Assembly (NCBI GenBank): GCA_016126655.1
Contig: CP065955.1
Span: 1,719,001 to 1,783,000 of the forward strand
Length of the DNA stretch: 64,000 bases
Source of the DNA: Aerococcaceae bacterium zg-1292
GTDB lineage: Bacteria; Bacillota; Bacilli; Lactobacillales; Aerococcaceae
Direction of reading: 5' to 3'
Positions 7,253-62,831 of the stretch are shown here, piece after piece. A program made the translations under genes and the position numbers. The number at the start of each line of letters is the position of its first letter. Positions within the stretch are counted from its first letter, which is position 1. The notes under the pieces were generated by a model. It saw only the letters and a list, made by a program, of their open reading frames with translations. It was not told the DNA's origin and ran no database searches.

Positions 7253-7361
7253 GTTCCAACTCGCTGAAATGTCATCTACTTCACAAAAAGCTTGGAATGC
7301 CAAAACGTTTCGTCACCTTTTTGCTCCAGTGGTTCATTTTAGTCCGCTCGTTGTCACACTA
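7253..7361. repeat. Hairpin repeat, GAAATG-arm type, in leuS leader
   Basis: Single copy of the dispersed hairpin family. The left arm CTGAAATG pairs with the right arm CATTTTAG (one G-U pair), and the copy ends in CGCTCGTTGTCACACTA like the other members. The inner loop differs from other copies. Confidence 0.7.
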
Positions 7362-7390
7362 AGATTTACCGATTTTGTTGTGAAAATGTC

Positions 7391-7681
7391 AAAACACCCT
7401 ATGACAAAAAGAAACCTCTCTTTATCATAGGGTGCAATTAGCACGGTACCACCTATTTTTTATTAATGATGTGTCAGTGACTACCATCATTAACCTCTCC
7501 TCTTTAACGCAGATTGACACGGTTTACTTTACTCAATCTTTTCAAGCAAACATCGATTAGATGAGTTCACTCGCTAAGCAGACTTATTTGCACCAACCAT
7601 AAGCTCTCTACACTGCATCACAACTTACTAATTCTAATCCTAGATTCTCTATTGTTTCCTGAAAATTCAATGACTTTCATA
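7391..7681 (-). promoter_or_regulatory. T-box leader (leucine) for leuS
   Basis: Read on the minus strand, the leader contains the conserved AGGTGGTACCGTG T-box sequence (7442-7454), followed by a GC-rich terminator hairpin and T run (7395-7434 and 7391-7394). Upstream is a Stem I region with AGAGAG and GGTTGGTG elements. A GAACTCA segment in the specifier loop position contains CTC (7565-7563), a Leu codon. This matches the leuS gene it precedes: uncharged tRNA-Leu would stabilise the antiterminator and allow read-through. The Stem I boundaries were placed by eye. Confidence 0.9.
7395..7434 (-). terminator. T-box terminator hairpin
   Basis: The arms CACCCTATGA and TCATAGGGTG pair perfectly over 10 bp, with a short T run beyond. 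This is the regulated terminator of the leuS T-box. Confidence 0.9.
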
Positions 7682-7687
7682 CATTTG

Positions 7688-7716
7688 ATTATGCCATAAA
7701 CCTATTAAAAAAACAA
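7688..7716 (-). promoter_or_regulatory. Promoter of leuS T-box transcript
   Basis: TTGTTT, a 17-nt spacer and CATAAT with an upstream TG (extended -10) lie just before the T-box leader on the minus strand. Confidence 0.7.
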
Positions 7717-7841
7717 ATGTTTCTTACCAAAAGTTTAAGAAAATAGCTGAAATTGTCTTCTTGAACATGGATTTTAATTCAGTATTTGTTTAAAATATGG
7801 TATAGTATAGTTAAGAAATATTATAGAAAAGAGGCGGTTTT

Positions 7842-9305: not shown

Positions 9306-9830
9306 CTATTCTTGTTTTAATTTTTCACTTTCTTGATCAAACCACGTTAATAATTTAATTTCACCCGTTTCGATTTGTTGTCGAATAACACCTGGTAAAC
9401 GCAATTCCACCACATCATTGTATCCCCAAAAATTATAATCTGCAATTAATTGCAAAATCGTCATATTTGATTTACGGTTACTTGCAACTTCATTCATATC
9501 GGTATGGCGCCACTCTAAGCGAACCAGACCATGGCGCAACCATTTTTTTGCAATTTCATATTTTAAAAACAGATATTCTTTTACTGGGTCCGCCATGATT
9601 TCGGGAACAATTTCCGCATTTCGAACGACTTTTTGCACTAGCATCCATTCATAGTCGGTAAATAAGGTGGAGATAATTTTCATATTATCATACTTCAATC
9701 CTTGTTCGCCTTTTTTCCAACGGTCCCAACTCTGCGGACTGATACCTAACTGCTCGCTATAAAATGCTTTCTCACTAACATATTTCTCACGAATTGCATA
9801 AACAACAATTGGAATTAATGCACTACTCAT
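9306..9830 (-). CDS. Hypothetical protein with possible N-terminal HTH
   Basis: This 174-aa protein is not one I can assign. Residues about 18-50 (SEKAFYSEQLGISPQSWDRWKKGEQGL) look like a helix-turn-helix of the Xre type, with the rest mixed alpha/beta and acidic. The start was moved to 9830 (MSSALIPIV) because GGAGG lies just upstream; the longer frame begins inside that ribosome binding site. The hairpin repeat cluster 9842-10320 begins 12 bp before the start codon, so it forms the 5' leader. The gene is followed closely by the glucosaminidase gene. Confidence 0.7.
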   Translation of the reverse strand: MSSALIPIVVYAIREKYVSEKAFYSEQLGISPQSWDRWKKGEQGLKYDNMKIISTLFTDYEWMLVQKVVRNAEIVPEIMADPVKEYLFLKYEIAKKWLRHGLVRLEWRHTDMNEVASNRKSNMTILQLIADYNFWGYNDVVELRLPGVIRQQIETGEIKLLTWFDQESEKLKQE

Positions 9831-9841
9831 AATAACCTCCA

Positions 9842-10320
9842 TAATCTGGTTCGCTCAGCTTAACTTGACGTCCACTTCAAAAACTTCCTCTGTGCGTTTC
9901 ACGCACGCCGTCTGTTTTCTCCAGTGGTTCAAGTCAGGGCAGCTTCGCTCACACTTTGTCATAATCTGGTTCGCTCAGCTTGTCTTGACGTCCACTTCAA
10001 AAACTTCCTCTGTGCGTTTTACGCACGCCGTCTGTTTTAATCCGGTTCGTGCGGACTGCCTCGACTTCCACTTCGCATAGCTCTTGATGTGTTTACTCAC
10101 TTCTTCGACCTCTGCTCCAGTGGTTCGAGGCATAACGTCCACTCTCACACCTTGTTTTCCAGTGGTTCAAGTCAGGGCAGCTTCGCTCACACTTTGTCAT
10201 TATCTGGTTCGCTTGGCTTGACTTGACATCCACTTCAAAAACTTCCTCTGTGCGTTTCACGCACGCCGTCTGTTTTCTCCAGTGGTTCAAGTCAGGGCAG
10301 CCTCGCTCACACTTTGTCAT
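9842..10320. repeat. Cluster of four hairpin repeats, one nested inside another
   Basis: Copy 1 (9842-9961) has ACTTGA/TCAAGT arms. Copy 2 is split: its left part is 9962-10038 and its right part is 10159-10200. Between them lies copy 3 (10039-10158) with TGCCTCGA/TCGAGGCA arms. Copy 4 (10201-10320) is again ACTTGA type. Copies 1, 2 and 4 share a loop holding a GTGCGT/ACGCAC hairpin, while copy 3 has a different loop. All are in the same orientation. Confidence 0.85.
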
Positions 10321-13000: not shown

Positions 13001-13016
13001 AATATTCCTCCTCATT

Positions 13017-13126
13017 CTGGCTCCAACTCGCTGAAAGAACCTCCCCTTTAAAACCGTCTCTAGATGCTGCTCGCATACAGTTGACTTTTTAATCTGATTC
13101 ATTTTAGGATGCTTGTTGTCGCACTA
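13017..13126. repeat. Hairpin repeat, GAAA-arm type, degenerate
   Basis: One copy 17 bp upstream of the zinc-ribbon gene. The left arm CCAACTCGCTGAAAG and the right arm CATTTTAG...GCTTGTTG are recognisable, but the CCACTTC box is lost. Confidence 0.6.
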
Positions 13127-13246
13127 AACTATACATATTGTCCCACCTATTGTACCACATCAAAACGCCATCTGTCATTTACAAATTGATATAACTATTG
13201 CGTATCTTCTTCATTTGAGCCCTATTACATCTCACTCATTATACAA

Positions 13247-18352: not shown

Positions 18353-18669
18353 TGGTCGAGGCAGGACGTTCTTGCTCGCACTATGTGTTATATTCTTGCT
18401 CGCTCGGACTGCCTCGACATCCACTTCGCATAGCTCTTGAAGTGCCGTTGGCGCTTCGGCGACCTCTGCTCCAGTGGTTCGAGGCAGAACGTCCTCTCTC
18501 GCACTATGTGTTCCAGTGGTTCAAGCCAGACCACCCTCGCTCGCACTATATGGATGCCGGCTCCAATGAGCTGAAACGACTCCACTTCAAAAGCCGCCGT
18601 TGTGCGTTCCACGCACGCCGTTGACTTTCTCCAGTGGTTCATTTCAGAGCGCTCATTGTCGCACTATAT
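18353..18669. repeat. Hairpin repeat cluster downstream of NdpA-family gene
   Basis: The order is a lone right-arm remnant (18353-18388), a complete TGCCTCGA/TCGAGGCA copy (18391-18515), and another lone right arm with TCAAGCCA (18516-18550). A complete copy with CAATGAGC/GCTCATTG outer arms and TGAAA/TTTCA inner arms (18551-18669) comes last. The middle portion matches 20264-20424, which indicates a duplicated block that has lost its outer left arm. Confidence 0.8.
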
Positions 18670-20029: not shown

Positions 20030-20424
20030 GATAGTAGAGGACATCTCGCGTCCTCGCTTGCATTATGTGGATGCCGGCTCCAACTCGCTGAAAGGACTCC
20101 ACTTCAAAAGCCGCCGTTGTGCGTTTCACGCACGCCGTTGGCTTTCTCCAGTGATTCATTTCAAAGCGCTCGTTGTCGCACTATTTTATGCCGGCTCGCT
20201 CGGGTTGGCTTGACGTCCACTTCACAAAACGCTTGAAGTGCTTATCGCACTCCGGCGCATTTTATATTCCGGCTCGTTCGGACTGCCTCGACATCCACTT
20301 CGCATAGTTCTTGAAGCGCCGTTGGCGCTTAGGCGACCTCTGCTCCAGTGGTTCGAGGCAGAACGTCCTCGCTCGCACTATGTGTTCCAGTGGTTCAAGC
20401 CAGACCACCCTCGCTCGCACTATT
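20030..20424. repeat. Hairpin repeat cluster between rodA and gcvH, with nested copy
   Basis: A right-arm remnant is at 20030-20065. A complete copy with CAAC/GTTG outer arms is at 20072-20183. A copy with GGGT...GGCTTGA left arm (20184-20263) and TCAAGCC...ACCC right arm (20385-20424) is interrupted by a complete TGCCTCGA/TCGAGGCA copy (20264-20384). The whole spacer between the rodA stop and gcvH is made of these elements. Confidence 0.85.
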
Positions 20425-22574: not shown

Positions 22575-22835
22575 GATTCTGGTTCCCTCGGCTTGGCTTG
22601 ACTTCCACTTCGCATTGCTCTTGAAGCGCCATTGGTGCTTCTACGACCTCTGCTCCAGTGGTTCAAGCCAGTTCAGCCTCACTCACACTATGTTTGATTC
22701 TGGTTCCCTCGGCTTGGCTTGACTTCCACTTCGCATTGCTCTTGAAGCGTCATTGGCGCTTCTACGATCTCTGCTCCAGTGGTTCAAGCCAGTTCAGCCT
22801 CACTCACACTATGTTTTCTCTCGAGGCTGAACGCC
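22575..22835. repeat. Two tandem hairpin repeats upstream of the yihY-family gene
   Basis: Two copies, 121 bp apart (about 22575-22695 and 22696-22812), have TGGCTTGA/TCAAGCCA arms and GGCT/AGCC outer arms. They differ mainly at one base pair of the inner hairpin (GCGCC...GGTGC against GCGTC...GGCGC). A right-arm remnant with CGAGGCTGAACGCCC follows. Confidence 0.85.
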
Positions 22836-25534: not shown

Positions 25535-25584
25535 AAAAACTACCGTGGCATTTACATTATTGGTAAATGCTGCGGTAGTTTTAA
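25535..25584 (+). terminator. Terminator of purine permease gene
   Basis: AAAACTACCG pairs with CGGTAGTTTT, with an inner GCATTTAC/GTAAATGC stem. Confidence 0.9.
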
Positions 25585-25587
25585 TTA

Positions 25588-25735
25588 TGGTTGGCTCAAG
25601 TTGACTTGTCATCCACTTCAGACGTCTCTTTTAGGTGATTATCATACGGCGGATTTGGATGTACCTAAGCACACGTCCTCACTATGTTTTCAGTAGGTTA
25701 CATCAGGGCCACCTTGGTCTCACTATTTCCAACAA
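25588..25735. repeat. Degenerate hairpin repeats downstream of KilA-N gene
   Basis: CTTGTCATCCACTTC and CAGTAGGTTACATCAGGGC words with CACTATG ends are recognisable. The arms no longer pair well. Confidence 0.45.
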
Positions 25736-26574: not shown

Positions 26575-26908
26575 TTTTCTCCTTTTGTTGATGTACTGTT
26601 CATAACAACTAACTATAAATAGTCACTCTAACACACACCAACGATTTTTCAGTTTTATATTTTAGTAGAAACTCTCAATATTTTATGTTCACCTAACTAC
26701 TGTACATCCCAGCGACAATATTTTCCCTTCACCTCGACAATCACTTCAAATCCCTCCACTGCACGTTTTTGGTACGCTGTCAGTTTCCTCCAATGATTCA
26801 AACCTAAGCACACGTACTCACTATGTGAATCAACGAGTCATGTCAGAGCACCTTACTCACACTATTTTTCCAGCAAGTCATGTTAAGCCTCTCCTTGTCA
26901 CACAATGT
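26575..26908. repeat. Intergenic region with degenerate hairpin repeats
   Basis: About 330 bp without a gene. From about 26735 there are three decayed copies or parts: CCACTGCACGTTTTTGGTACGCTG, CAATGATTCAAACC, and two GTCATGT...CTCACACTAT ends. Pairing is largely lost. Confidence 0.45.
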
Positions 26909-31794: not shown

Positions 31795-31930
31795 TTCATG
31801 CCCGCTGTAACGAGCGTTTGACAAACCCGTTCACTCTATGTTTTATTCTATCGTTCAAGCAACCACAACGCCCACTGCTTAAAACACTTGGAGCGCTATG
31901 ATTTGTGACTGATTGCCTTCTCTTGCACTA
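31795..31930. repeat. Degenerate hairpin repeats between cvpA and mutS2
   Basis: Decayed words (GTTCACTCTATG, GTTCAAGCAACCACAACGCCC, CTTGCACTATG) show a broken copy or two in this 180-bp spacer. Confidence 0.45.
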
Positions 31931-31933
31931 TGT

Positions 31934-44509: not shown

Positions 44510-47500
44510 TTAAGCTTCTTCTTCCTCTTTTTTAGATTTAACTCCTAAAAGTCCGAGACCTCCAAGAATTGCGAGTGCGGCTGCACCGAAAATAGCTGTA
44601 TTGTCACTTTCACCTGTTTCAGGTAATGTCGCAGCTTTAGCCATTTGTTGAGGCACACTTGCTTGTGAATCATCAGTTTTTGGTGTTTCATTCATACCTT
44701 TATCTGTTGAATCATCTGCTTCTGGTTTCTCAGGCATTTCTGGTGTTTCTGATGAACCGTTATCTGTCGAATCATCTGTTTTTGGTGTTTCACCTGCGTT
44801 AGAATCAACAACTTGAATGATCACGTCAATTGTATCAACTGAACCATCAGGGTAGGTAACGATTACTTTACCTGTTTTATCACCTGCTGTTGTCGTATCA
44901 ATTGGTGTTTCAAATTCAGCTTTTGTACCTTTTGGTAATTTACCAAAGTTCATAATTGATTTCTCAGCTGTTACTCCGCCACCGACGTTAACTGTTTGTT
45001 TTTGTCCAATCGGTTCGTACTTATCTGCATCCGTACTTTCTTTACCTGGTTTTGGATTAACGACTTTCACTGTTACCGTTACTTTGTCTTCTGAGCCATC
45101 TGTATAAGATACTACTACTGTTGCTGTGATTGTTCCTGGTTTAGTTGTATCCACAGGTGTCTCGAATTTAGCCGTTGTGCCTTCTGGTAAATCTTTGAAG
45201 TTGCCGATTGATTTTTCTGCAGTTACACTTCCGCCGACGTTGACTGTTTGTTCTTTGCCGACTGGGGTGTGTTTGTCTGCTAAGGTTAATTTAGATCCGT
45301 TATCGTCACGGTTAGCTTCATGTCCATTTACTGGTACTTCGATTTCTTTCTTACCTTCTGGTAAGTCTGGATCCGTCACGGTTACTGTGATTGGACCATC
45401 AACTTGTGTTCCTGGAGTTACTGACACTTTGCCATCTTCTCCAATTACTGCTGGTATTTCGTTGCCATCTTCATCCGTAGCTGTTACTTTTGTATCTTCG
45501 CCTGCGTTTTTGATGACAATTCCTGTATCTTGTGACTCATCTGTTGGATTGACTGGTTTTGCGTCACCTTCAACCATTGTCTTATCTGACTCGTTATCGT
45601 CACGGTTAGCTTCATGTCCATTTACTGGTACTGTGATTTCTTTCTTACCTTCTGGTAAGTCTGGATCCGTCACGGTTACTGTAATTGGACCATCAACTTG
45701 TGTTCCTGGAGTTACTGACACTTTGCCATCTTCTCCAATTACTGCTGGTATTTCGTTGCCATCTTCATCCGTAGCTGTTACTTTTGTATCTTCGCCTGCG
45801 TTTTTGATGACAATTCCTGTATCTTGTGACTCATCTGTTGGATTGACTGGTTTTGCGTCACCTTCAACCATTGTCTTATCTGACTCGTTATCGTCACGGT
45901 CAGCTTCATGTCCATTTACTGGTACTTCGATTTCTTTCTTACCTTCTGGCAAGTCTGGATCCGTCACGGTTACTGTAATTGGACCATCAACTTGTGTTCC
46001 TGGAGTTACTGACACTTTGCCAGCTTCTCCAATTACTACTGGTATTTCGTTGCCATCTTCATCCGTAGCTGTTACTTTTGTGTCTTCGCCTGCATTTTTA
46101 ATGACAATACCTGTGTCTTGCGACTCATCTGTTGGATTGACTGGTTTTGCGTCACCTTCAACCATTGTCTTATCTGACTCGTTATCGTCACGGTCAGCTT
46201 CATGTCCGGTTACTGGTACTGTGATTTCTTTCTTACCTTCTGGTAAGTCTGGATCCGTCACGGTTACTGTAATCGGACCATCAACTTGTGTTCCTGGAGT
46301 GACTGACACTTTGCCATTTTCTCCAATTACTGCTGGTATTTCGTTGCCATCTTCATCCGTAGCTGTTACTTTTGTATCTTCGCCTGCGTTTTTGATGACA
46401 ATACCTGTGTCTTGTGACTCATTTGTTGGATTGACTGGTTTTGCGTCACCTTCAACCATTGTCTTATCTGACTTGTTATCGTCACGGTCAGCTTCATGTC
46501 CGGTTACTGGTACTGTGATTTCTTTCTTACCTTCTGGTAAGTCTGGATCCGTCACGGTTACTGTGATTGGACCATCAACTTTTGTTCCTGGAGTTACATA
46601 CACTTCTCCATTTTGACCTGATGTTACTGGAACAACTTTACCATCTTCATCCGTAGCTGTTACTTTTGTATCTTCGCCTGCGTTTTTAATGACAATACCT
46701 GTGTCTTGTGGGTCATCTGTTGGATCGACTGGTTTTGCGTCACCTTCAACTGTTGTCTTATCTGACTCGTTATCGTCACGGTCAGCTTCATGTCCATTTA
46801 CTGGTACTTCGATTTCTTTCTTACCTTCTGGTAAGTCTGGATCCGTCACGGTTACTGTAATTGGACCATCAACTTGTGTTCCTGGAGTTACTGACACTTT
46901 GCCATCTTCTCCAATTACTGCTGGTATTTCGTTGCCATCTTCATCTTTAGCTGTTACTGTTGTATCTTCGCCTGCGTTTTTGATGACAATGCCTGTGTCT
47001 TGTGACTCATCTGTTGGATTGACTGGTTTTGCGTCACCTTCAACCATTGTCTTATCTGACTTGTTATCGTCACGGTCAGCTTCATGTCCGGTTACTGGTA
47101 CTGTGATTTCTTTCTTACCTTCTGGTAAGTCTGGATCCGTCACGGTTACTGTGATTGGACCATCAACTTGTGTTCCTGGAGTTACTGACACTTTGCCACC
47201 TTCTCCAATTACTGCTGGTATTTCGTTGCCATCTTCATCTTTAGCTGTTACTTTTGTATCTTCGCCTGCGTTTTTGATGACAATGCCTGTGTCTTGTGAC
47301 TCATCTGTTGGATTGACTGGTTTTGCGTCACCTTCAACCGTTGTCTTATCTGACTTGTTATCGTCACGGTTAGCTTCATGTCCATTTACTGGTACTTCGA
47401 TTTCTTTCTTACCTTCTGGCAAGTCTGGATCCGTCACGGTTACTGTAATTGGACCATCAACTTGTGTTCCTGGAGTTACTGACACTTTGCCATCTGCTCC

Positions 47501-50500
47501 AATTACTGCTGGTATTTCGTTGCCATCTTCATCTTTAGCTGTTACTGTTGTATCTTCGCCTGCGTTTTTGATGACAATGCCTGTGTCTTGCGACTCATCT
47601 GTTGGATTGACTGGTTTTGCGTCACCTTCAACCGTTGTCTTATCTGACTTGTTATCGTCACGGTCAGCTTCATGTCCATTTACTGGTACTTCGATTTCTT
47701 TCTTACCTTCTGGTAAGTCTGGATCCGTCACGGTTACTGTAATTGGACCATCAACTTGTGTTCCTGGAGTTACTGACACTTTGCCATCTGCTCCAATTAC
47801 TGCTGGTATTCCGTTGCCATCTTCATCCGTAGCTGTTACTTTTGTATCTTCGCCTGCGTTTTTGATGACAATGCCTGTGTCTTGTGACTCATCTGTTGGA
47901 TCGACTGGTTTTGCTTCACCTTCAACCGTTGTCTTATCTGACTTGTTATCGTCACGGTCAGCTTCATGTCCGGTTACTGGTACTGTGATTTCTTTCTTAC
48001 CTTCTGGTAAGTCTGGATCCGTCACGGTTACTGTGATTGGGCCATCAACTTGTGTTCCTGGAGTTACTGACACTTTGCCATCTGCTCCAATTACTGCTGG
48101 TATTTCGTTGCCATCTTCATCTTTAGCTGTTACTTTTGTATCTTCGCCTGCGTTTTTGATGACAATACCTGTGTCTTGTGACTCATCTGTTGGATTGACT
48201 GGTTTTGCGTCACCTTCAACCATTGTCTTATCTGACTTGTTATCGTCACGGTTAGCTTCATGTCCGGTTACTGGTACTGTGATTTCTTTCTTACCTTCTG
48301 GTAAGTCTGAATCCGTCACGGTTACTGTAATTGGACCATCAACTTGTGTTCCTGGAGTTACTGACACTTTGCCATCTGCTCCAATTACTGCTGGTATTTC
48401 GTTGCCATCTTCATCTTTAGCTGTTACTTTTGTATCTTCGCCTGCGTTTTTAATGACAATACCTGTGTCTTGTGGGTCATCTGTTGGATCGACTGGTTTT
48501 GCTTCACCTTCAACCATTGTCTTATCTGACTCGTTATCGTCACGGTCAGCTTCATGTCCGGTTACTGGTACTGTGATTTCTTTCTTACCTTCTGGTAAGT
48601 CTGGATCCGTCACGGTTACTGTGATTGGACCATCAACTTGTGTTCCTGGAGTGACTGACACTTTGCCATCTGCTCCAATTACTGCTGGTATTTCGTTGCC
48701 ATCTTCATCTTTAGCTGTTACTTTTGTATCTTCGCCTGCGTTTTTAATGACAATACCTGTGTCTTGTGGGTCATCTGTTGGATCGACTGGTTTTGCTTCA
48801 CCTTCAACCATTGTCTTATCTGACTCGTTATCGTCACGGTTAGCTTCATGTCCATTTACTGGTACTGTGATTTCTTTCTTACCTTCTGGTAAGTCTGGAT
48901 CCGTCACGGTTACTGTGATTGGACCATCAACTTGTGTTCCTGGAGTGACTGACACTTTGCCATCTGCTCCAATTACTGCTGGTATTTCGTTGCCATCTTC
49001 ATCTTTAGCTGTTACTTTTGTATCTTCGCCTGCGTTTTTGATGACAATGCCTGTGTCTTGTGACTCATCTGTTGGATCGACTGGTTTTGCTTCACCTTCA
49101 ACCGTTGTCTTATCTGACTTGTTATCGTCACGGTCAGCTTCATGTCCGGTTACTGGTACTGTGATTTCTTTCTTACCTTCTGGTAAGTCTGGATCCGTCA
49201 CGGTTACTGTGATTGGGCCATCAACTTGTGTTCCTGGAGTTACTGACACTTTGCCATCTGCTCCAATTACTGCTGGTATTTCGTTGCCATCTTCATCCGT
49301 AGCTGTTACTTTTGTGTCTTCGCCTGCATTTTTAATGACAATACCTGTGTCTTGTGACTCATTTGTTGGATTGACTGGTTTTGCGTCATCTTCAACCGTT
49401 GTCTTATCTGACTCGTTATCGTCACGGTCAGCTTCATGTCCGGTTACTGGTACTGTGATTTCTTTCTTACCTTCTGGTAAGTCTGGATCCGTCACGGTTA
49501 CTGTGATTGGGCCATCAACTTGTGTTCCTGGAGTTACTGACACTTTGCCATCTGCTCCAATTACTGCTGGTATTTCGTTGCCATCTTCATCCGTAGCTGT
49601 TACTTTTGTATCTTCGCCTGCGTTTTTGATGACAATACCTGTGTCTTGTGACTCATCTGTTGGATTGACTGGTTTTGCGTCACCTTCAACCATTGTCTTG
49701 TCTGACTTGTTATCGTCACGGTTAGCTTCATGTCCATTTACTGGTACTTCGATTTCTTTCTTACCTTCTGGCAAGTCTGGATCCGTCACGGTTACTGTAA
49801 TTGGACCATCAACTTGTGTTCCTGGAGTTACTGACACTTTGCCATCTGCTCCAATTACTGCTGGTATTTCGTTGCCATCTTCATCCGTAGCTGTTACTTT
49901 TGTATCTTCGCCTGCGTTTTTGATGACAATACCTGTGTCTTGTGACTCATCTGTTGGATTGACTGGTTTTGCGTCACCTTCAACCATTGTCTTGTCTGAC
50001 TTGTTATCGTCACGGTTAGCTTCATGTCCATTTACTGGTACTGTGATTTCTTTCTTACCTTCTGGTAAGTCTGGATCCGTCACGGTTACTGTAATTGGAC
50101 CATCAACTTTTGTTCCTGGAGTTACATACACTTCTCCATTTTGACCTGACGTTACTGGAACAACTTTACCATCTTCATCCGTAGCTGTTACTTTTGTATC
50201 TTCGCCTGCGTTTTTAATGACAATACCTGTGTCTTGTGACTCATCTGTTGGATTGACTGGTTTTGCGTCACCTTCAACCGTTGTCTTAGGATTACCTATT
50301 GTAATTGGCACTGTAACATCATCATAGGTAGTATCCGGATAAGTAACTCTGACCGTCGCTTCGAATTTACCTGCAGTTTGTCCATCAGGTAATTCGGATA
50401 ATATTTGTCCATCATTAGATGCGTTTGTTATTTTAACAATGCTTAATTCATATGGTTTTCTACGTCTATAATCCACTACGGATACCTTTTCAAAGACTTC

Positions 50501-52402
50501 TTCTTCCGTTACTCCTTCACCATACGGTTTAATAATTTCCTCTGCTTCAGCCGGTTCATAAATTTCATTGTGTGGTCGGTCGTCTTTAATTCGATACAAT
50601 GCAGTTGCTTGTGAGTTAGGGATTAACAATCCATTTTTATCTGTAAAATATGCTGTGAATGGAAAAGTATCACTTTGTAATTGCTCCAAAATTTCTTTAG
50701 GTGCATTTTTTAAATATAAGCGGAAGCCTGTCACAACAGGTTCAGTGGTTATATTGCCGAAATCCACTAATTTATTCATATCCTCATGAGTAACAGAACC
50801 TTTACCTTGATCGTCCAAAGCTAATTTCATAACACTTTTTTGAGAGCGTCCCGAATTTAATGACGCGCCATAGTTTACTTCCCAGTCAATCTTATGTAGC
50901 TCCACCTTTTCAATATAAGGAAGCAATTCAGGAGCAATTTCATAATTATATTGCCATTGACGTGTTGTAGAACCAACACCAGCGATTGGTCCACTAGTAT
51001 TATAGTTCCACAAATGATCCTTTACGTGAGTAAAGTAAACATCTAATTCATTTCCATTAGCCTCAGAAAATCCTGAGTTAGTTCCGGTAAACAACTTTCT
51101 AATATTTTTATCTTGTGATGGATTTTCTTGTGGTAATTCTTTATTAACCATAATATAAGCACTCGCTTCTGTGTCACGTCCATCTCTGTTTGTGATTACG
51201 TTACCCTTATCATCTTTAACATAAGTCCGATAGAATACTTCTTCGCCTTTTAATTCCTCACCAAAAATTTCTCCTATTGTTTTTGTCAACGAAATTTTCC
51301 CAAGTTCAGATGTATGAACCACGGCAATTAAACCACCACGCACTAAGCCTTCCTGTCCTATATGAAACGGAACCTCCCAGATATTTGTTCCTTTAACTCG
51401 AGTGAACGTTCTAATATTTTTATTATCAATATCGGGTGCTGTTATCTCTTTTACATAAGGTGCTATTTTTTCATCTAATTCCATGTTAATGGTATATTTA
51501 CCACTCACTGCTAAGCCGAATAGATAACTATAATTAAAATCAAGTTCTGTTTTATCCGCATCTTTTACTGTATCAATACTATGAATCCGTGTTGCTAACA
51601 TATTCAGTCCGTTGTCTTTTTGACGTCCTGCGTCTGGTTCTAGCTCAGAGAATGAATTATCTTTTGTACCAGTAGCCACATCTTTCGTATCTGTTAGTGC
51701 TGCAGCTCTAAAAGCAACAACTTCTTCTGTTTGTGCTGCTGATTCCAAATTTGCTAACGCTTGTTCAAGTCGAGCGGATAATTCATTATAATTTTGAATG
51801 GCTGAATCAACCTCTACTTGTGTTGTATTTGGGTTTTCGCGCAATGCTACCATCAAACTATATGCTTCTTTAGCTTCTTCTAATAATCTAGCATAATTTT
51901 GATACGCAACTGACTCTGTATCAGTATTTTCAGGAGTCGGTAAATTTAGTGCACGGTCTAGATTTTCTACAATCGTATCAAATTGGTTAAAGTCAGTTTC
52001 ACTATCTTTTTCAACTGTCTCGTCAATTAATTCTTTCGGCGTTTCTTCGCCTTGTACCTCTTCTTCAGCTGGTACTTCCGCTTCTGTAGCTGGCGCTTGC
52101 GTTACTTCTTGAGCAACTGGCTCCACTGCTTTAACCGCTTGAACATCTTTGGAACCTGCTTCATTAGCAACCGGTCCCGCTTCTGTTCCTTCTTCTTCGC
52201 CTGTACTTGTTGTTGTGTCTTGTGTAGTAGCTGCTGGGTCTTCTACTGTTTCAGCATTCGCAATCGCGATATTGCCGGCAAATAAAAGACTAGCAGAGAC
52301 AGCAACTGAAGCCACCCCGACTGATAAACGCTTAATAGCGTATTGATACTTCTTATGACATTCTCTCTCACGTCTTGCTTGGACATTATTTTTTCCTAAC
52401 AT
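44510..52402 (-). CDS. Giant YSIRK/LPxTG surface adhesin with 98-aa repeat stalk (2630 aa)
   Basis: The signal peptide has a YSIRK-like motif (YAIKRLSVGVASVAVS, residues 21-36) with cleavage near ANA (residue 50). A helical segment and the same head domain as the neighbour (about 248-608) follow, then a YPDT-type domain. Next come 17 tandem 98-residue Ig-like repeats (about 705-2372). Each contains an AKPVNPTDESQDTGIVIKN core and a VTPGTQVDGPITVTVTDP strand. Two Rib-type repeats (about 2372-2535), a Pro/Asp/Thr-rich wall region and LPETG at 2593-2597 come last. The last 33 residues are almost identical to the neighbour. The two genes are paralogues sharing head and anchor but with different stalks. 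It probably acts as a wall-anchored adhesin; the ligand is unknown. Confidence 0.93.
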   Translation of the reverse strand: MLGKNNVQARRERECHKKYQYAIKRLSVGVASVAVSASLLFAGNIAIANAETVEDPAATTQDTTTSTGEEEGTEAGPVANEAGSKDVQAVKAVEPVAQEVTQAPATEAEVPAEEEVQGEETPKELIDETVEKDSETDFNQFDTIVENLDRALNLPTPENTDTESVAYQNYARLLEEAKEAYSLMVALRENPNTTQVEVDSAIQNYNELSARLEQALANLESAAQTEEVVAFRAAALTDTKDVATGTKDNSFSELEPDAGRQKDNGLNMLATRIHSIDTVKDADKTELDFNYSYLFGLAVSGKYTINMELDEKIAPYVKEITAPDIDNKNIRTFTRVKGTNIWEVPFHIGQEGLVRGGLIAVVHTSELGKISLTKTIGEIFGEELKGEEVFYRTYVKDDKGNVITNRDGRDTEASAYIMVNKELPQENPSQDKNIRKLFTGTNSGFSEANGNELDVYFTHVKDHLWNYNTSGPIAGVGSTTRQWQYNYEIAPELLPYIEKVELHKIDWEVNYGASLNSGRSQKSVMKLALDDQGKGSVTHEDMNKLVDFGNITTEPVVTGFRLYLKNAPKEILEQLQSDTFPFTAYFTDKNGLLIPNSQATALYRIKDDRPHNEIYEPAEAEEIIKPYGEGVTEEEVFEKVSVVDYRRRKPYELSIVKITNASNDGQILSELPDGQTAGKFEATVRVTYPDTTYDDVTVPITIGNPKTTVEGDAKPVNPTDESQDTGIVIKNAGEDTKVTATDEDGKVVPVTSGQNGEVYVTPGTKVDGPITVTVTDPDLPEGKKEITVPVNGHEANRDDNKSDKTMVEGDAKPVNPTDESQDTGIVIKNAGEDTKVTATDEDGNEIPAVIGADGKVSVTPGTQVDGPITVTVTDPDLPEGKKEIEVPVNGHEANRDDNKSDKTMVEGDAKPVNPTDESQDTGIVIKNAGEDTKVTATDEDGNEIPAVIGADGKVSVTPGTQVDGPITVTVTDPDLPEGKKEITVPVTGHEADRDDNESDKTTVEDDAKPVNPTNESQDTGIVIKNAGEDTKVTATDEDGNEIPAVIGADGKVSVTPGTQVDGPITVTVTDPDLPEGKKEITVPVTGHEADRDDNKSDKTTVEGEAKPVDPTDESQDTGIVIKNAGEDTKVTAKDEDGNEIPAVIGADGKVSVTPGTQVDGPITVTVTDPDLPEGKKEITVPVNGHEANRDDNESDKTMVEGEAKPVDPTDDPQDTGIVIKNAGEDTKVTAKDEDGNEIPAVIGADGKVSVTPGTQVDGPITVTVTDPDLPEGKKEITVPVTGHEADRDDNESDKTMVEGEAKPVDPTDDPQDTGIVIKNAGEDTKVTAKDEDGNEIPAVIGADGKVSVTPGTQVDGPITVTVTDSDLPEGKKEITVPVTGHEANRDDNKSDKTMVEGDAKPVNPTDESQDTGIVIKNAGEDTKVTAKDEDGNEIPAVIGADGKVSVTPGTQVDGPITVTVTDPDLPEGKKEITVPVTGHEADRDDNKSDKTTVEGEAKPVDPTDESQDTGIVIKNAGEDTKVTATDEDGNGIPAVIGADGKVSVTPGTQVDGPITVTVTDPDLPEGKKEIEVPVNGHEADRDDNKSDKTTVEGDAKPVNPTDESQDTGIVIKNAGEDTTVTAKDEDGNEIPAVIGADGKVSVTPGTQVDGPITVTVTDPDLPEGKKEIEVPVNGHEANRDDNKSDKTTVEGDAKPVNPTDESQDTGIVIKNAGEDTKVTAKDEDGNEIPAVIGEGGKVSVTPGTQVDGPITVTVTDPDLPEGKKEITVPVTGHEADRDDNKSDKTMVEGDAKPVNPTDESQDTGIVIKNAGEDTTVTAKDEDGNEIPAVIGEDGKVSVTPGTQVDGPITVTVTDPDLPEGKKEIEVPVNGHEADRDDNESDKTTVEGDAKPVDPTDDPQDTGIVIKNAGEDTKVTATDEDGKVVPVTSGQNGEVYVTPGTKVDGPITVTVTDPDLPEGKKEITVPVTGHEADRDDNKSDKTMVEGDAKPVNPTNESQDTGIVIKNAGEDTKVTATDEDGNEIPAVIGENGKVSVTPGTQVDGPITVTVTDPDLPEGKKEITVPVTGHEADRDDNESDKTMVEGDAKPVNPTDESQDTGIVIKNAGEDTKVTATDEDGNEIPVVIGEAGKVSVTPGTQVDGPITVTVTDPDLPEGKKEIEVPVNGHEADRDDNESDKTMVEGDAKPVNPTDESQDTGIVIKNAGEDTKVTATDEDGNEIPAVIGEDGKVSVTPGTQVDGPITVTVTDPDLPEGKKEITVPVNGHEANRDDNESDKTMVEGDAKPVNPTDESQDTGIVIKNAGEDTKVTATDEDGNEIPAVIGEDGKVSVTPGTQVDGPITVTVTDPDLPEGKKEIEVPVNGHEANRDDNGSKLTLADKHTPVGKEQTVNVGGSVTAEKSIGNFKDLPEGTTAKFETPVDTTKPGTITATVVVSYTDGSEDKVTVTVKVVNPKPGKESTDADKYEPIGQKQTVNVGGGVTAEKSIMNFGKLPKGTKAEFETPIDTTTAGDKTGKVIVTYPDGSVDTIDVIIQVVDSNAGETPKTDDSTDNGSSETPEMPEKPEADDSTDKGMNETPKTDDSQASVPQQMAKAATLPETGESDNTAIFGAAALAILGGLGLLGVKSKKEEEEA
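45287..50290 (-). repeat. Seventeen tandem 294-bp repeats
   Basis: The codons for the KTMVEG/KTTVEG junction recur with an exact 294-bp period; 16 periods separate 45581 from 50285 and one further unit precedes. Units 1 and 13 share a variant cassette (VVPVTSGQNGEVYVTPGTK) while the rest read EIPAVIG. Confidence 0.95.
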
Positions 52403-55556: not shown

Positions 55557-55812
55557 TTGCGCTCGCACTATGGGGATTCTGGCTCGCTCGGGCTGCCTCG
55601 ACGTCCACTTCACATTGCTCTTGAAGCGTTGAGGCGCTTCGGCGACCTCTGTTCCAGTGGTTCGAGTCAGAGCGCCCGCGCTCGCACTATGCGGATGCCG
55701 GCTCGCTTGGGTTGACTTGACATCCACTTCAAAAGGCGCCTTTGTGCGCTTCTCGCACGCAGTTGCCTTTCTCCAGTGGTTCAAGTCAGTGCACCCGCGC
55801 TCGCACTATGTT
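55557..55812. repeat. Two hairpin repeats filling the trhP1-trhP2 spacer
   Basis: Copy 1 (about 55575-55693) has GGGC/GCCC outer arms and a GCCTCGA left arm whose right arm reads TCGAGTC, a partial mismatch. Copy 2 (55694-55810) has GGGT/ACCC and TTGACTTGA/TCAAGTCA arms with the GTGCG/CGCAC type loop. The trhP1 stop codon lies just beyond the end of copy 2. Confidence 0.85.
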
Positions 55813-58274: not shown

Positions 58275-59080
58275 ATTCTGGTTCGCTTGGGTTGACTTGT
58301 CTCCACTTCACATTGCTCTTGAAGCACCACTGGCGCTTCTACGACCCCTGCTCCAGTGGTTCAAGTCAGAACACCCGCACTCACACCATGTTCTATTCTG
58401 GTTCGTTCGGACTGCCTCGACGTCCACTTCACATTGCTCTTGAAGCGCCACTGGCGCTTCTACGACCCCTGCTCCAGTGGTTCGAGGCAAAACGCCCTCT
58501 CTCGCACTATGTTCTATTCTGGTTCGCTTGGGTTGACTTGTCTCCACTTCACATTGCTCTTGAAGCACCACTGGCGCTTCTACGACCCCTGCTCCAGTGG
58601 TTCAAGTCAGAACACCCGCACTCACACCATGTTCTATTCTGGTTCGTTCGGACTGCCTCGACGTCCACTTCACATTGCTCTTGAAGCGCCACTGGCGCTT
58701 CTACGACCCCTGCTCCAGTGGTTCGAGGCAAAACGTCCTCTCTCGCACTATGTTCTATTCTGGTTCGTTCGGACTGCCTCGACGTCCACTTCACATTGCT
58801 CTTGAAGCACCACTGGCGCTTCTACGACCCCTGCTCCAGTGGTTCGAGGCAAAACGCCCTCTCTCGCACTATGTTCTATTCTGGTTCGTTCGGACTGCCT
58901 CGACGTCCACTTCACATTGCTCTTGAAGCGCCACTGGCGCTTCTACGACCCCTGCTCCAGTGGTTCGAGGCAGAACGTCCTCTCTCGCACTTTGTTCTAT
59001 TCTGATTCACTTGGGTTGACTTGTCTCCACTTCAAAAAATATTTGGGGTGCTCATGCACTGCTACAAACTTTGCTGCAAG
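58275..59080. repeat. Array of seven hairpin repeats (120/121-bp period), rnmV-rsmA spacer
   Basis: The GTTCG (or ATTCAC) box recurs at 58281, 58401, 58522, 58642, 58763, 58884 and 59005. Units are of two types: A with TTGACTTG/CAAGTCA and GGGT/ACCC arms (120 bp), and B with TGCCTCGA/TCGAGGCA and GGAC/GTCC arms (121 bp). The order is A B A B B B then a truncated A. All share a GAAGC-(A/G)-CCACTGGCGCTTC loop hairpin. Confidence 0.95.
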
Positions 59081-59108
59081 GTTTCAAGCCAACGTTTCCT
59101 TATTCTGT

Positions 59109-59669
59109 TTACTCTTCTAACTGCGCTAATACTGCTTCTACTTGCTCTAACGAAATATGATAGACACTCAATTTTTTCTGCAATTGTTTCCCGTTCAAAT
59201 GCCCGATTCGTAGCTGTTCACTCAACCAGGATCGACGTTTCACGGCTTGTGGATGTCCAATGAGCCGCAGCCGGATTAAATCTGACAACTCAATCGTATC
59301 AACTGGGCCAACCTCAGGTGTCATAACATGTGCTAGTGCCTTCAAAATAGTTTCCGGCAATGCATGTTCAATGCCTAAGCTTTTATGCTCCTTACCACTA
59401 TCCGCTTCTTGCTGCGTCAAATAGGCTTGTTTTGCCTGCGGAACTAATGCAGTAACGATACGTCGAATGCGTTCGCCTTGATAATCTGGGTCAGTAAAAA
59501 TAATTATCCCAAACTGTTCACTCGCTGCTACAATTTGTTGTTGCACTGAGCGACTAACAGCTGAACCATTCGTTTCAATCGTTTTGACATAGGGACCAAA
59601 TGTTTCAATCAAACGCTTAGTATCATCCCTACCTTCAACAATAATCACTTCTTGTGGTGGCTTATTCAT
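59109..59669 (-). CDS. rnmV: Ribonuclease M5
   Basis: This 186-aa TOPRIM nuclease matures 5S rRNA. It begins with a TOPRIM motif (EVIIVEGRDDTKRLIETFG), and IIFTDPDYQGERIRRIV holds the metal-binding Asp residues. GKEHKSLGIEHALPETILKAL follows. The start was set at 59669 with GGGAGC upstream; the longer frame adds 11 residues without support. In Firmicutes it normally follows tatD directly, but here a tnpB element separates them. The array of hairpin repeats lies between it and rsmA. Confidence 0.93.
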   Translation of the reverse strand: MNKPPQEVIIVEGRDDTKRLIETFGPYVKTIETNGSAVSRSVQQQIVAASEQFGIIIFTDPDYQGERIRRIVTALVPQAKQAYLTQQEADSGKEHKSLGIEHALPETILKALAHVMTPEVGPVDTIELSDLIRLRLIGHPQAVKRRSWLSEQLRIGHLNGKQLQKKLSVYHISLEQVEAVLAQLEE

Positions 59670-59742: not shown

Positions 59743-59960
59743 GAAAAATATAAATAAATATCATCATTTCTTATATTTTTACTACGTGACACCTTTCGGT
59801 TATCACTTCCTGTTTCTTCGTGTCCAATCTCGGTAGGAGTATGCTCCACACCTACTATTGTTTGTTATAACACTCCACAGGCTTAAATTCCCCAGTAGCG
59901 ATGGGTACTGATGTCTTTTTTATATCACTTGTGAATAACAAGCTTGTAAATTCTTAGCTG
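59743..59960 (-). ncRNA. Probable TnpB guide (omega) RNA region
   Basis: In TnpB elements the guide RNA overlaps the end of tnpB and runs to the right end, with the guide coming from flanking DNA. This stretch has several short hairpins (for example GGTGT...ACACC and GGAGTG...CACTCC) and ends at the inverted repeat. The placement is inferred from family knowledge. Confidence 0.4.
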
Positions 59961-61110
59961 CGTTGAAATCTCGGTCTAATATAGTACCGCAACACTCGCA
60001 TTTATACGTTCGCTCACTCAATTTTAGTTGTTGTTTCTTATATCCACAACCACTACATAATTTTGAACTTGCATAAAAACGATTAATAACTACTAGCTCA
60101 ATTCCCATTCGTGCACATTTATACTCTAGTTGTTGGCGAATGGTATGGAACTTACAATTGCTTATGGCTTTTGCCAAGTGTTTATTTTTCATCATGCCAG
60201 AAACATTCAAATCTTCAATCACAATCGCTTTCGGCAATTGTTTAACAATATGTGTTGTCGCTTGATGAATATGATTGTTTCGGATATTTGTTAACGAACG
60301 ATGGATTAGCTTAATGTCCTGGATTGTTTTTTGGATATTACAACATTCTTCAATCGGACGTTTCCAGATTGGTTTACGATGACCATTGATGACTTTGAAA
60401 CTTGTTGTATTAGCCGTTAATTGTCTTGATAAATGATGTTGATAACGTCTTAGGCGTTTCGTCAATTGTTTAACACGTTTGGAATAGTTGATGTTGTCAA
60501 CCGTTCCACCATTTGAACACGTCATTAACGTTTTAACACCTAAATCAATACCTATCACTTCATTAGTTAACGATTCATCAAAAGTACAAGGTGCGTCATA
60601 AGTAAACGACACATACCAATATTTTCCGTCATAAGAGATTCGTGGATTGTAATAAAATTGATTTTTACCAATTTTGGGTAACGGTTCAGCGGTCTTTACT
60701 ACGCCTAAACGTTCGCCTTGAAACCCTTTTGGTTTCCAACGGAAACTTTCGTAGTTCACGTAAAAACTCGGGGTCGTACGTGTTTTAGATTTATATCTTG
60801 GTGCTCTAGCTAAACCTTTAATACATTTAAGTTTCGCTGTATTCCAATCTCTAACTGCTTGTTTGGCGACATTACTTCCAACTTCTGCCAACCATGGACA
60901 TTCCGTCTTTTTTAATTGTGTAATTTCTTTACGAATATTTCCCTCGCTAATATACTTTGGTTTCGTTGGGTCTTCTTTGTATGCCTCGTAAGTTTCATGG
61001 TCACGAGTAATCGCATAATTATACGCCCAACGAGCCACACCTGCTGATTTTTTGAACAAGACTTCTTGTTCTGGAGTAGGTAAAAGCCTAATCTTTTTCC
61101 CTTGTAACAT
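59920..61110 (-). CDS. tnpB: TnpB RNA-guided nuclease (IS200/IS605-type)
   Basis: This 396-aa protein is a full-length TnpB. The N-terminal helix-turn-helix region is KKIRLLPTPEQEVLFKKSAGVARWAYNYAITR. The RuvC motifs are IGIDLGVKTLMTCSNG (first Asp), IVIEDLNVSGM (Glu) and LDRDFNAAKNL (last Asp). A zinc finger CSGCGYKKQQLKLSERTYKCECCG lies between the last two. All catalytic residues are intact, so it may still cut DNA guided by RNA. The gene is not disrupted. No transposase gene tnpA is adjacent, so movement would need help in trans. Confidence 0.93.
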   Translation of the reverse strand: MLQGKKIRLLPTPEQEVLFKKSAGVARWAYNYAITRDHETYEAYKEDPTKPKYISEGNIRKEITQLKKTECPWLAEVGSNVAKQAVRDWNTAKLKCIKGLARAPRYKSKTRTTPSFYVNYESFRWKPKGFQGERLGVVKTAEPLPKIGKNQFYYNPRISYDGKYWYVSFTYDAPCTFDESLTNEVIGIDLGVKTLMTCSNGGTVDNINYSKRVKQLTKRLRRYQHHLSRQLTANTTSFKVINGHRKPIWKRPIEECCNIQKTIQDIKLIHRSLTNIRNNHIHQATTHIVKQLPKAIVIEDLNVSGMMKNKHLAKAISNCKFHTIRQQLEYKCARMGIELVVINRFYASSKLCSGCGYKKQQLKLSERTYKCECCGTILDRDFNAAKNLQACYSQVI

Positions 61111-61299
61111 CTTTTACACCCTCAATCAGTTGTCGTTAATTTTCATAAGTCATGCGGAATCTAGCCCACACTCTTAACAATTTGCTATTTAACATCAGTA
61201 CCATTGGTATCAATCCTTTCACTTTATCGTTGAGGATAGTGTACCGCATGGAATTTATTTTTGTAAATATAAGTTATACATTTATTTATATTTTTCTCA

Positions 61300-61745
61300 T
61301 TCACGCTAGAACGCAACTTCTAACGCAGTCTTATTCTCACGAATAGACCTCTCATGCTTTCACATGAGCGTAGACTATATCTTCAACTAGGTTTGTGCCT
61401 AGTTGCCACATTTTTCTTCCGCCCTTAGCTTGCAGTTTTACTCTCCCTCAAGGAGATAGTCGTTGGGGGTCTTCCGTATCTGTTATCAGACTTAGGACTT
61501 TCCCTGCTAAACATCCATTGTTACAGTACTTAGGACTAACGTTTTCTAAGGTTCACTATTTTTATCTCTTAGACACTGATTAGCTTTTGTTTCACCATAT
61601 ACTATCCTTGTTGTTTTTTCTGCTTTCGCACCACTCAGCTTACTGTTTCCAGTTACTGTTTCGGTCACAAGGCTTTAGGAGTTAAAAGCATTTAACGTGG
61701 AGTCTGCACCAATCACTTGATACAGAGGGTATGCTGTTAATATAT
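61300..61745 (-). ncRNA. Group I intron-like core upstream of tnpB
   Basis: On the minus strand a P-like element TTTAGCAGGGAAAG lies at 61499-61512. An R-like CCCCCAACGACTATCTCC is at 61452-61469. A P8-like hairpin AACTAGG/CCTAGTT (61385-61404) is followed at once by the S-like GAAGATATAGTCTACG at 61369-61384, whose TAGTC can pair with GACTA of R to form P7. Three further hairpins follow: CTCATG/CATGAG at 61351-61368, TCTATTC/GAATAAGA at 61329-61347 and CGTTAGAA/TTCTAGCG at 61304-61325. Their order fits P9 to P9.2. The 5' splice site, P1 and P3 were not located. Confidence 0.6.
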
Positions 61746-61771
61746 ATAGATTTATATTAATTTGTATAAAT

Positions 61772-62500
61772 TTATTGCAACAGTTTTGTTACCCAACCTC
61801 TGACTTGAGCCAGGGTTTCTGCTACATAATACACATATCCTGGCTCATTGCGCTTGCCTCGATAAGGTACTGGCGCTAAATACGGCGCATCTGTTTCAAT
61901 TAACAGGCGATTTTCTGGCACAATAAGGGCTGCTTTACGAACATCTTCTGCTTTTTTAAAGGTCAACACACCACTAAAGCTAATATGCATCCCTAAATCT
62001 AAAAATCGCTTGGCTTCTTCTTCATTCCCGCCAAAACTATGCATAATACCACCCGCAGCTGGCACGCCTTCATCCTTTAAAATACGGTATGTGTCCTCGG
62101 TGGCTTCACGATTATGAATCGTAATCGGCAAATGATGTTCTTTGGCAATAGCAATCTGACGACGAAATACTTGCTCTTGTACTGATTTAGGTGCAGTGTC
62201 CCAGTAATAATCTAAGCCGATTTCCCCTAACATTTTTACTTTAGGTAATGTCAACCAGTGCTCTAACTTTTTCTCAAATGCTGCACTATAATTACCAGCT
62301 TCTGTCGGATGACAACCTACAGCACTAATAATTGATTCATATTGTTCACTCAGTGCCAATGTTTTTAAAATCGTAGTTTCATCAAACCCGACGACTGCCA
62401 TATAATGAACGTGCTGTTTTCGTGCTTTTTCAATAATTTCTGCTTCAATTCCCTCGAATTGTTCCGCATTTAAATGCGTATGCGTATCAAAAAGTTTCAT
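61772..62500 (-). CDS. tatD: TatD-family metal-dependent DNase
   Basis: This 242-aa TIM-barrel metalloenzyme belongs to the TatD/YabD family of DNases and D-aminoacyl-tRNA deacylases. The metal ligands are visible in FDTHTHLN, GEIGLDYYWD, TIHNREA, GIMHSFGG and LLIETDAPYLAPVPYRGKRNEP. It is about 10 residues shorter than usual at the C-terminus, ending VTKLLQ, while most homologues extend further. The mobile element begins soon after the stop codon, so the end may have been altered. It follows metG in the conserved metG-tatD-rnmV order. Confidence 0.93.
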   Translation of the reverse strand: MKLFDTHTHLNAEQFEGIEAEIIEKARKQHVHYMAVVGFDETTILKTLALSEQYESIISAVGCHPTEAGNYSAAFEKKLEHWLTLPKVKMLGEIGLDYYWDTAPKSVQEQVFRRQIAIAKEHHLPITIHNREATEDTYRILKDEGVPAAGGIMHSFGGNEEEAKRFLDLGMHISFSGVLTFKKAEDVRKAALIVPENRLLIETDAPYLAPVPYRGKRNEPGYVYYVAETLAQVRGWVTKLLQ

Positions 62501-62831
62501 TATTATTAAAGGCTATGTCCTGTGTCTTCTTACGCACCAAACATATACCCTACTACCTCCATTTCCCTAACTTCAGTCTAAAATTAGCATTCATTGATAT
62601 ATTTGTCAAAACACATTGTGCGACATCGTGCGCTCAGAAATGAATCACTGGAGAAAGATTGCTGATGCGTCCACACGCTTCAAAAACTTTGTGAAGTGGA
62701 GGTCATTTCTGCTCGTCGGAGCCGTTATACACATTGTGCGACAGCGTGCACCTAGAAACAATTCCCTGCTTGCCGCTCGTAAAACAGTAGGAGCCAATCA
62801 CAATGACCAGCTCCCACAATCATTCAAACAA
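62501..62831. repeat. metG-tatD spacer with inverted hairpin repeat and terminator
   Basis: One hairpin repeat in the opposite orientation to the others lies at about 62612-62726. Read on the minus strand it has CAGAAATG/CATTTCTG arms and CCACTTC/CCAGTGATTC boxes. A second end fragment (CACATTGTGCGACAGCGTGC) is at 62729-62752. A terminator hairpin lies at 62790-62814. Confidence 0.75.
62790..62814 (-). terminator. Terminator of metG
   Basis: GGAGCTGGTCA pairs with TGATTGGCTCC using G-U pairs, followed by TACTGTTTT on the minus strand. Confidence 0.75.

Follow-up and report, generated by a model that had tools for sequence, protein, structure and literature searches.

A dispersed hairpin repeat of Aerococcaceae and other Lactobacillales, probably a mobile element defined by its fold

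Introduction

What kind of element changes its stem sequences from copy to copy and still pairs? This question is raised by a stretch of 64,000 nucleotides (the window, positions 1,719,001–1,783,000) of the single-contig chromosome, 2,424,983 bp, of Aerococcaceae bacterium zg-1292 (CP065955.1; labeled G000 below), which contains many copies of a hairpin of approximately 117 nt. An earlier note on this DNA described the copies and proposed that the folded form is selected or that copying depends on a hairpin. In the present study, the fold was found to co-vary beyond phylogeny across genera, and we consider it fairly likely that the element is a short non-autonomous mobile repeat, the identity of which lies in its fold and not in its sequence, and which needs one folded strand to spread.

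Results

One Fold, Many Sequences

The more than 20 dispersed copies previously claimed were recovered. A covariance model (R1), built from 59 copies, placed 25 copies in the window at E ≤ 0.01, between positions 7247 and 62728, including 19 strong matches (77–116 bits) and six decayed matches (21.6–34.8 bits), with 24 on the minus strand and one on the plus strand; two of the 25 are training sequences of R1 and match by construction. The motif CCAGTGGTTC, allowing one mismatch, was present 25 times against 2.23 expected, an approximately tenfold excess that was reached in none of 100 shuffles; three of these matches are minus-strand CCAGTGGTGC within the apical loops of an array and not element cores. 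On the whole chromosome, an exact pattern matched 217 copies (94 forward and 123 reverse in the frame of the earlier note) and the reversed pattern, used as a control, matched none. Copies stand singly or form tandem arrays with as many as six units and a period of 119–121 bp. Paired arms that change together and two loop types, both of which had been described, are present in the window copies.

The motifs of the frame proposed earlier stood; its strand is better reversed. Reverse-complementing the string “CCACTTC ... CCAGTGGTTC” gives “GAACCACTGG ... GAAGTGG”, and this opposite strand is more informative: its constant mismatches are G·A, and the strand of the earlier frame folds too, yet more weakly in 55 of 59 copies by folding energy. 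Read in this direction, the element is one hairpin of near-constant size with the unit 5'-CATAGTG[TC]GA-P1-bulge-P2-A-CCACT-GGA-P4...P4'-GA-AGTGG-A(CG)-P2'-P1'-GA[AG]CC-3'. P1 and P2 have eight positions each and are separated by a four-base one-sided bulge on the 5' side; from the base upward, an 8-position stem leads through the 4-nt bulge to an 8-bp stem, which a 1/3-nt loop separates from a 5-bp stem; above these come a bulged G with a tandem G·A and the apical stem. The central tandem G·A, which follows the five-pair stem and one bulged G, was conserved in 58 and 57 of 59 copies, and a second tandem G·A near the base in 55 and 57, the adjacent pair mainly exchanging T-A and C-G. Minimum free energy folds of six copies gave the predicted hairpin as described, with z-scores of −3.2 to −9.1.

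A larger set of 257 copies from G000 was gathered using patterns that fixed the central motif and left the stem columns free; 499,071 bases (20.6% of the chromosome) centered on copies were examined, with reverse copies beyond 1.05 Mb covered in part. The G·A pairs were kept in 246–254 of these copies, a proportion that is partly ascertained because the search patterns fixed the central motif. Non-canonical positions co-vary too. The lower internal loop takes alternative purine-rich forms, as is evident from columns 14/114 and 15/113, which carry G·A then A·G in 93 copies, G·A then C·A in 66, and Watson-Crick pairs in the others. Five or fewer of the eight P2 pairs were present in 11 of the 257 copies. 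One copy, at position 216570 of the chromosome, has left and right arms of different types and appears to be recombinant. The six units of the array at 58275–58994 in the window are near-identical inside; two unrelated arm types, TGACTTG/CAAGTCA and TGCCTCGA/TCGAGGCA, take turns along the array, as though the interiors had been converted without the arms.

Covariation Across Genera

Two alignments were examined: one of 59 copies, made using MAFFT only and drawn mainly from a single genus (53 copies), and one in which 64 distinct cross-genus copies were aligned to the model. In the former, 88.0% of cells were paired against 72.2% after shuffling, and the covariation score was 0.474 against 0.202, with slid-partner controls at 0.057–0.093. 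In the latter, the corresponding values were 95.3% against 65.3% and 0.773 against 0.199, with slid controls at 0.173 or lower. Because shuffles ignore relatedness, a phylogeny-aware test was added, an R-scape-like procedure that re-deals substitutions along a FastTree tree and assesses the 29 pairs of the model at E < 0.05. Significance was reached by 19 of the 29 pairs among the cross-genus copies and by just two in the alignment dominated by one genus, and by no other column pair in either. The expectation of the earlier note that covariation would exceed phylogeny therefore held across genera and mostly failed within one genus, where the test has little power.

Structure had a part in assembling these data, and its influence was reduced in two ways. 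When the cross-genus copies were realigned by MAFFT without structure, the 29 pairs stayed in register in at least half of the rows and 18 were significant, together with one extra pair that lengthens the apical stem. Since the cross-genus copies had come from a structure model, a second model that ignores base pairing (R2) was made; it found 50 copies in 38 of the cross-genus loci by sequence alone, and 14 of the 29 pairs, and no others, were significant in its alignment of 49 distinct rows. This check takes structure out of copy finding within loci and out of alignment, not out of locus choice: the cross-genus loci are the best match per genome, fetched with R1, which favors pairing copies. 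With 19, 18, and 14 of 29 pairs above a phylogeny-aware null, the previously proposed alternatives of selection for the fold or hairpin-dependent copying are supported.

A neutral process may also produce covariation. Quasipalindrome correction, or intrastrand template switching, is established for imperfect palindromes and would change both arms together with no need for a fold. Such correction should erase mismatches and one-sided bulges; the G·A pairs are retained in the proportion given above, and copies from different genera still have the 4-nt bulge and a nearly constant length. We consider it quite improbable that template switching accounts for the pattern. Between unlinked G000 copies that are 90–95% identical, double changes kept pairing in 55 cases and broke it in 16, while single changes were split 71 to 70; these copy pairs are not independent of one another.

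Distribution

With R1 at E ≤ 1e-4, the element was found in 36 of the 76 family genomes, which belong to 10 of the family's 21 genera, and R1 detected it in 64 of 395 genomes and 25 of 80 genera of the order Lactobacillales. In a class-wide draw of 398 genomes, four had matches at E ≤ 1e-5. They are the window genome, a further member of its family, and two genomes of one family outside the order, where the weak matches show a similar motif. Up to 48 candidates per genome were scored in the family search and up to nine in the order and class searches, and per-genome model counts are lower bounds. The copy number is uneven within the genus: the exact pattern was found 217 times in G000, 19 times in its congener G002, and not at all in the congeners G001 and G003, in which R1 gave at least one and at least two matches, respectively.

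The frame was also found in Aerococcus sp. HMSC062A02 and Atopococcus tabaci. Across genera, the central stem varies (CACT/AGTG, CGTT/AACG, CCTT/AAGG, GACT/AGTC, and CTCT/AGAG), and U-GGA and GA-A are nearly constant. Common to the genera are the internal loops and their spacing, the 4-nt bulge, and the near-constant length; the end sequences differ. In Aerococcus sp. HMSC062A02, the copies of one family (L040, L048, L018, L025, and L052) are followed by a second short palindromic stretch resembling GGGCTNGTACGGCTNGC, and the element may therefore be longer in this strain.

The earlier note recognized no named element, and Rfam concurred. At the gathering threshold, the window matched T-box and RAGATH-18 only, neither of which overlaps a copy, and four element loci searched at E ≤ 5 gave one weak match, which lies outside the element. 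No description of the element was found in the open-access papers searched; most subscription papers were outside this search.

Nesting, Presence or Absence, and Decay

Comparisons with congeners revealed occupied and empty sites. The element is present in the rnmV-ksgA gap and in the leuS leader of G000 and is absent from both in G001, G002, and G003. Elsewhere in G002, remnants were found in one further gap and in two of six gaps compared, and an intact copy in one of the six; the gap at 13.0 kb has a decayed copy in G000 and stronger copies of another type in G002.

Copies also interrupt one another. In the window and elsewhere, the 5' half of a host copy stops at CACTGGA and its 3' half restarts at the apical stem, with complementary arms on the two sides of the inner copy. 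A targeted search gave 32 such rows, one of them without an inner copy; it asked only for insertion after CACTGGA and thus fixed the position by construction. In an open test of 125 array 5' flanks, 93 ended in no other copy and 32 ended in one: 15 at its 3' end, 15 in columns 37–43, and two elsewhere inside. Insertion inside copies is concentrated at the G·A loop because 15 of the 17 internal flanks fall in columns 37–43. Exact 8-nt complementary arms were found in 15 of 18 host-half rows, with spacing that fits one (12 rows) or more (three rows) inserted copies; the spacing in the remaining three is 80–100 nt.

These features recall a miniature inverted-repeat transposable element (MITE), being those of a short (~117 nt), non-coding, and dispersed repeat (217 exact-pattern copies). 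An ordinary MITE would be moved in trans by the DDE transposase of a resident insertion sequence (IS), and the hairpin would be a by-product of terminal inverted repeats (TIRs). The high copy number and mostly intergenic location are consistent with this origin, as is the lack of a gene-bearing version: host halves split by a gene, the expected form of an autonomous copy, were sought in the fetched loci and none were found. On the other hand, no target-site duplication (TSD) was resolved, the stems co-vary along their length, and the features shared between genera are internal loops and spacing, while the ends differ. An ordinary MITE is thus distinctly unlikely.

Position Relative to Genes

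Gene positions were taken from simple open reading frame (ORF) calls. In the gene-distance set of G000, 32 of 139 arrays were dropped (28 for overlap with a short ORF, three for lack of a locus, and one for lack of a flanking gene), and start distances are approximate. Thirty of 80 co-oriented upstream genes end within a 4-nt window at the element start. In a set of 67 rows, most of them from other genera, a co-oriented ORF ends within 150 nt in 33, and 23 of these 33 end at −10 to +6 nt of the element, at or inside its 5' end, distances for which no expected distribution was computed; the proportion is 21 of 31 after dropping one double-counted copy and one row from the genus of the window (two copies of the set are doubly named, L018/L223 and L049/L255, and L227 is from the congener G003). 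Downstream, in 32 of 123 array ends of G000, GGAG starts 6–7 nt past the closing GARCC, a position resembling that of a Shine-Dalgarno (SD) sequence. Arrays adjoin both a stop and a start in 15 cases, a stop only in 17, a start only in 20, and neither in 18. Contact with a stop is not tightly coupled to contact with a start, and so short gaps alone fail to explain both.

Orientation differs between lineages. Between co-directional genes, 70 of 74 arrays of G000 are in the sense direction (70:4), and the ratio in G002 is 14:1. In other genomes outside the genus (47 arrays), 13 were sense and 16 antisense, and the ratio in Aerococcus sp. HMSC062A02 (22 arrays) was 8:8. The bulk of G000 copies follow the replichore. 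Replication was considered as the cause of orientation and rejected: between co-directional genes transcribed opposite to replication, copies agree with the genes in eight cases and with replication in one, with chromosome halves assigned by position and the terminus not located. Two further arrays, near 1,540,194 and 2,057,830, oppose both genes and replication.

These results bear on the possibility that the hairpin is a functional intercistronic RNA, co-transcribed between a stop codon and an SD sequence, bound or cleaved by, for example, an RNase III-type enzyme, and selected at each locus to set mRNA stability or translation. The sense bias in G000, the SD-like GGAG, the tendency to follow genes where genes and replication conflict, and the double changes that keep pairing between unlinked copies (55 against 16) are all expected of such an RNA. 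The main argument against a general role in mRNA is that copies outside the genus show no preferred orientation. Nested, truncated, and decayed copies exist, moreover, and R1 matches are few in G001 and G003, two of the genus's four genomes. We therefore regard a selected intercistronic RNA as an unlikely explanation.

Search for a Mobilizer

The earlier note suggested a linked REP-associated tyrosine (Y1) transposase, and this was not supported. Among the 76 family genomes, 22 have both the element and Y1, 14 carry the element without Y1, 14 carry Y1 without the element, and 26 lack both (p = 0.038), a weak association. Y1 transposases are not required by the element because 14 of 36 carriers gave no Y1 match at E ≤ 0.001, including single-contig genomes with at least 38–48 model matches; G000 itself has a single, broken Y1 locus. 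Movement as single-stranded DNA by a Y1 transposase of the IS200/IS605 or REP-associated type would fit the logic of a hairpin, the lack of a clear TSD, the replichore strand bias, and the weak co-presence. The carriers without Y1 largely refute it, and the orientation of copies tracks genes, not replication; we judge this route to be very improbable.

Copies in the Window and Neighboring Features

The copies and host fragments in the window are listed in Table 1. The copy nearest the left end lies between the start of leuS and its T-box leader (7425–7650, minus strand; Rfam RF00230, 107 bits). A RAGATH-18 RNA (59807–59881, minus strand; RF03064, 69.7 bits) is located near the six-unit array. 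Two giant ORFs of 2799 and 2630 aa, at 35710–44109 and 44510–52402 on the minus strand, contain tandem repeats of 237 bp in 12 units and of 294 bp in 17; the units are 93–95% and 87–99% alike, respectively, when compared with the first. Long antisense ORFs overlap the repeats, and the two giant ORFs probably encode surface proteins.

Table 1. Hairpin copies and interrupted host copies, by position in the window, with scores of the covariance model R1
Position	Strand	Feature	R1 (bits)	Remarks
7247–7363	−	Hairpin copy separating leuS from its T-box leader	77.2	Training-set member; gap without copy in G001–G003
9843–9958	−	Hairpin copy	111.9	3' end adjoins SD-like GGAGG of ORF 9306–9842
9963–10038	−	3' half of host copy		Interrupted by copy 10039–10154
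10039–10154	−	Whole copy nested in G·A loop of host copy	109.4	
10150–10198	−	5' half of interrupted host copy		String takes in first bases of inner copy
10201–10316	−	Hairpin copy	111.9	
13014–13128	−	Decayed copy	34.8	G002 gap has stronger copies of other type
18392–18508	−	Whole copy after host 5' half	114.6	
18512–18552	−	5' half of host copy		Ends CACTGGA
18554–18668	−	Hairpin copy	103.7	CAATGAGC/GCTCATTG type
20071–20185	−	Hairpin copy	94.0	
20188–20263	−	3' half of interrupted host copy		
20266–20382	−	Whole copy nested in host 20188–20424	114.8	
20386–20424	−	5' half of host around 20266–20382		Directly after stop codon of upstream gene
22576–22692	−	Hairpin copy	102.7	Adjoins SD of yihY-like gene
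22697–22813	−	Hairpin copy	103.9	Tandem with 22576–22692
25584–25727	−	Decayed copy	21.6	
26718–26825	−	Decayed copy	29.7	
31845–31932	−	Decayed copy	27.1	
35181–35292	−	Decayed copy	22.8	
55576–55691	−	Hairpin copy	112.0	
55695–55810	−	Hairpin copy	115.5	
58275–58390	−	Array unit 1 of 6	99.4	Adjoins SD of rsmA/ksgA
58395–58511	−	Array unit 2	107.6	
58516–58631	−	Array unit 3	99.4	
58636–58752	−	Array unit 4	108.7	
58757–58873	−	Array unit 5	107.3	
58878–58994	−	Array unit 6	107.5	Training-set member
58999–59116	−	Decayed copy, array 5' end	30.0	After rnmV
62614–62728	+	Hairpin copy, antisense to neighbors	84.4	Two copies in corresponding gap of G002

Discussion

We regard the element as probably a short, non-autonomous mobile repeat that is defined by its fold and requires one folded strand to spread, because it is absent at some relatives' sites, occurs in tandem, nested, and decayed forms, and often contacts stop codons. 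Several results weigh against this reading. Only two model pairs were significant in the alignment dominated by one genus, and the choice of the cross-genus loci favored pairing copies. No exact junction was readable from the empty sites of the rnmV-ksgA gap and the leuS leader due to divergence or a decayed first unit. A search for TSDs in 98 non-nested array flank pairs gave nothing clear, the highest diagonal having a mean z of 1.2 (two cells) and single cells reaching at most 2.8. The nearest unlinked copy has a median identity of 88.8%, and recent movement is rare because only five of 257 copies have an unlinked relative that is at least 95% identical. The sense orientation of 70 of 74 arrays in G000 would fit a host function also, the stop-codon contact stands without a computed expectation, and no linked transposase or reverse transcriptase was found.

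If the repeat is mobile, a widespread protein of Lactobacillales may use the G·A motifs and their spacing to recognize the folded strand, which may be RNA or single-stranded DNA, and the recognized strand would then be copied to new places; lineages in which the element is still spreading would be those in which the stems still pair. It is possible, although we hold this wider proposal to be doubtful, that the repeats form a fold-only mobile class across the order, a bacterial counterpart of short interspersed elements; a widespread host enzyme would move them in trans as folded RNA or single-stranded DNA by reading the two tandem G·A motifs and their spacing, with insertion aimed at stop codons and at the element's own loop.

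Repeats of the BOX, REP, and EFAR types are usually catalogued by sequence and by species, whereas one architecture with few letters in common was traced here across many genera. Two old questions thereby become testable, namely, what recognizes such hairpins and whether separately named repeats belong to one structural superfamily. The covariance model is a direct means to find carriers, those that lack Y1 transposases reduce the range of candidate enzymes, and the preference for the element's own loop offers a target site that may be assayed. With hundreds of mostly intergenic copies, the element may also shape the mRNAs of operons.

Among known systems, the attC sites of integrons are defined by the fold of one strand and not by sequence, and the present element is similar to them in that the fold of one strand probably defines it. 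The REP and BIME sequences are shorter palindromes that are associated with a REP-associated tyrosine transposase; the element resembles them as a high-copy extragenic palindrome and differs in that Y1 is not required in its carriers. Within Lactobacillales, the EFAR repeats of Enterococcus faecalis, from a 2007 FEMS paper, are reported to integrate into stem-loops. Efa-1 of E. faecalis, compared here by its description only, is likewise an intergenic hairpin repeat, which consists of a pair of adjacent hairpins over 163 bp in the accessible part of its description (PMC2267715), whereas the present element is a single hairpin of approximately 117 nt. RUP of Streptococcus pneumoniae has IS630-like inverted repeats with a TA duplication. 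It is similar to the element in length and copy number (~107 bp; 110 copies in one genome); TIRs, TSDs, and a hypothesized mobilizer, IS630-Spn1, are described for RUP, and no covariation test of RUP is reported in the accessible sections of the source (PMC3049150).

The closest analogy found in print was BOX, which the earlier note had placed among the nearest. Two BOX copies of the pneumococcal type on viral contigs, L357 (2185–2299) and L358 (10117–10231), are 115 nt long, seemingly lack boxB, and have a 5-bp stem flanked on the 5' strand by GGA. Both have AA where the boxC consensus has GA opposite the GGA of boxA, which may hint at a link to the G·A motif of the present element. The element is not filed as BOX because R1, with filters off, gave no match at either copy. 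According to the accessible sections of one genomic survey, BOX elements of S. pneumoniae and Streptococcus suis are dispersed hairpin repeats (125 BOX in one genome) built of boxA, boxB, and boxC modules, for which TIRs and TSDs are reported; the repeats insert into one another, BOX supplies a stop codon in 36 cases, its mobilizer is not established, and it is almost absent from other streptococci (PMC3049150). The present element also nests in repeats and abuts stop codons (23/33), a likeness of habit and not of homology, and, in contrast to BOX, it spans families. If the fold-only class is real, pneumococcal BOX might be a distant, modular branch of it.

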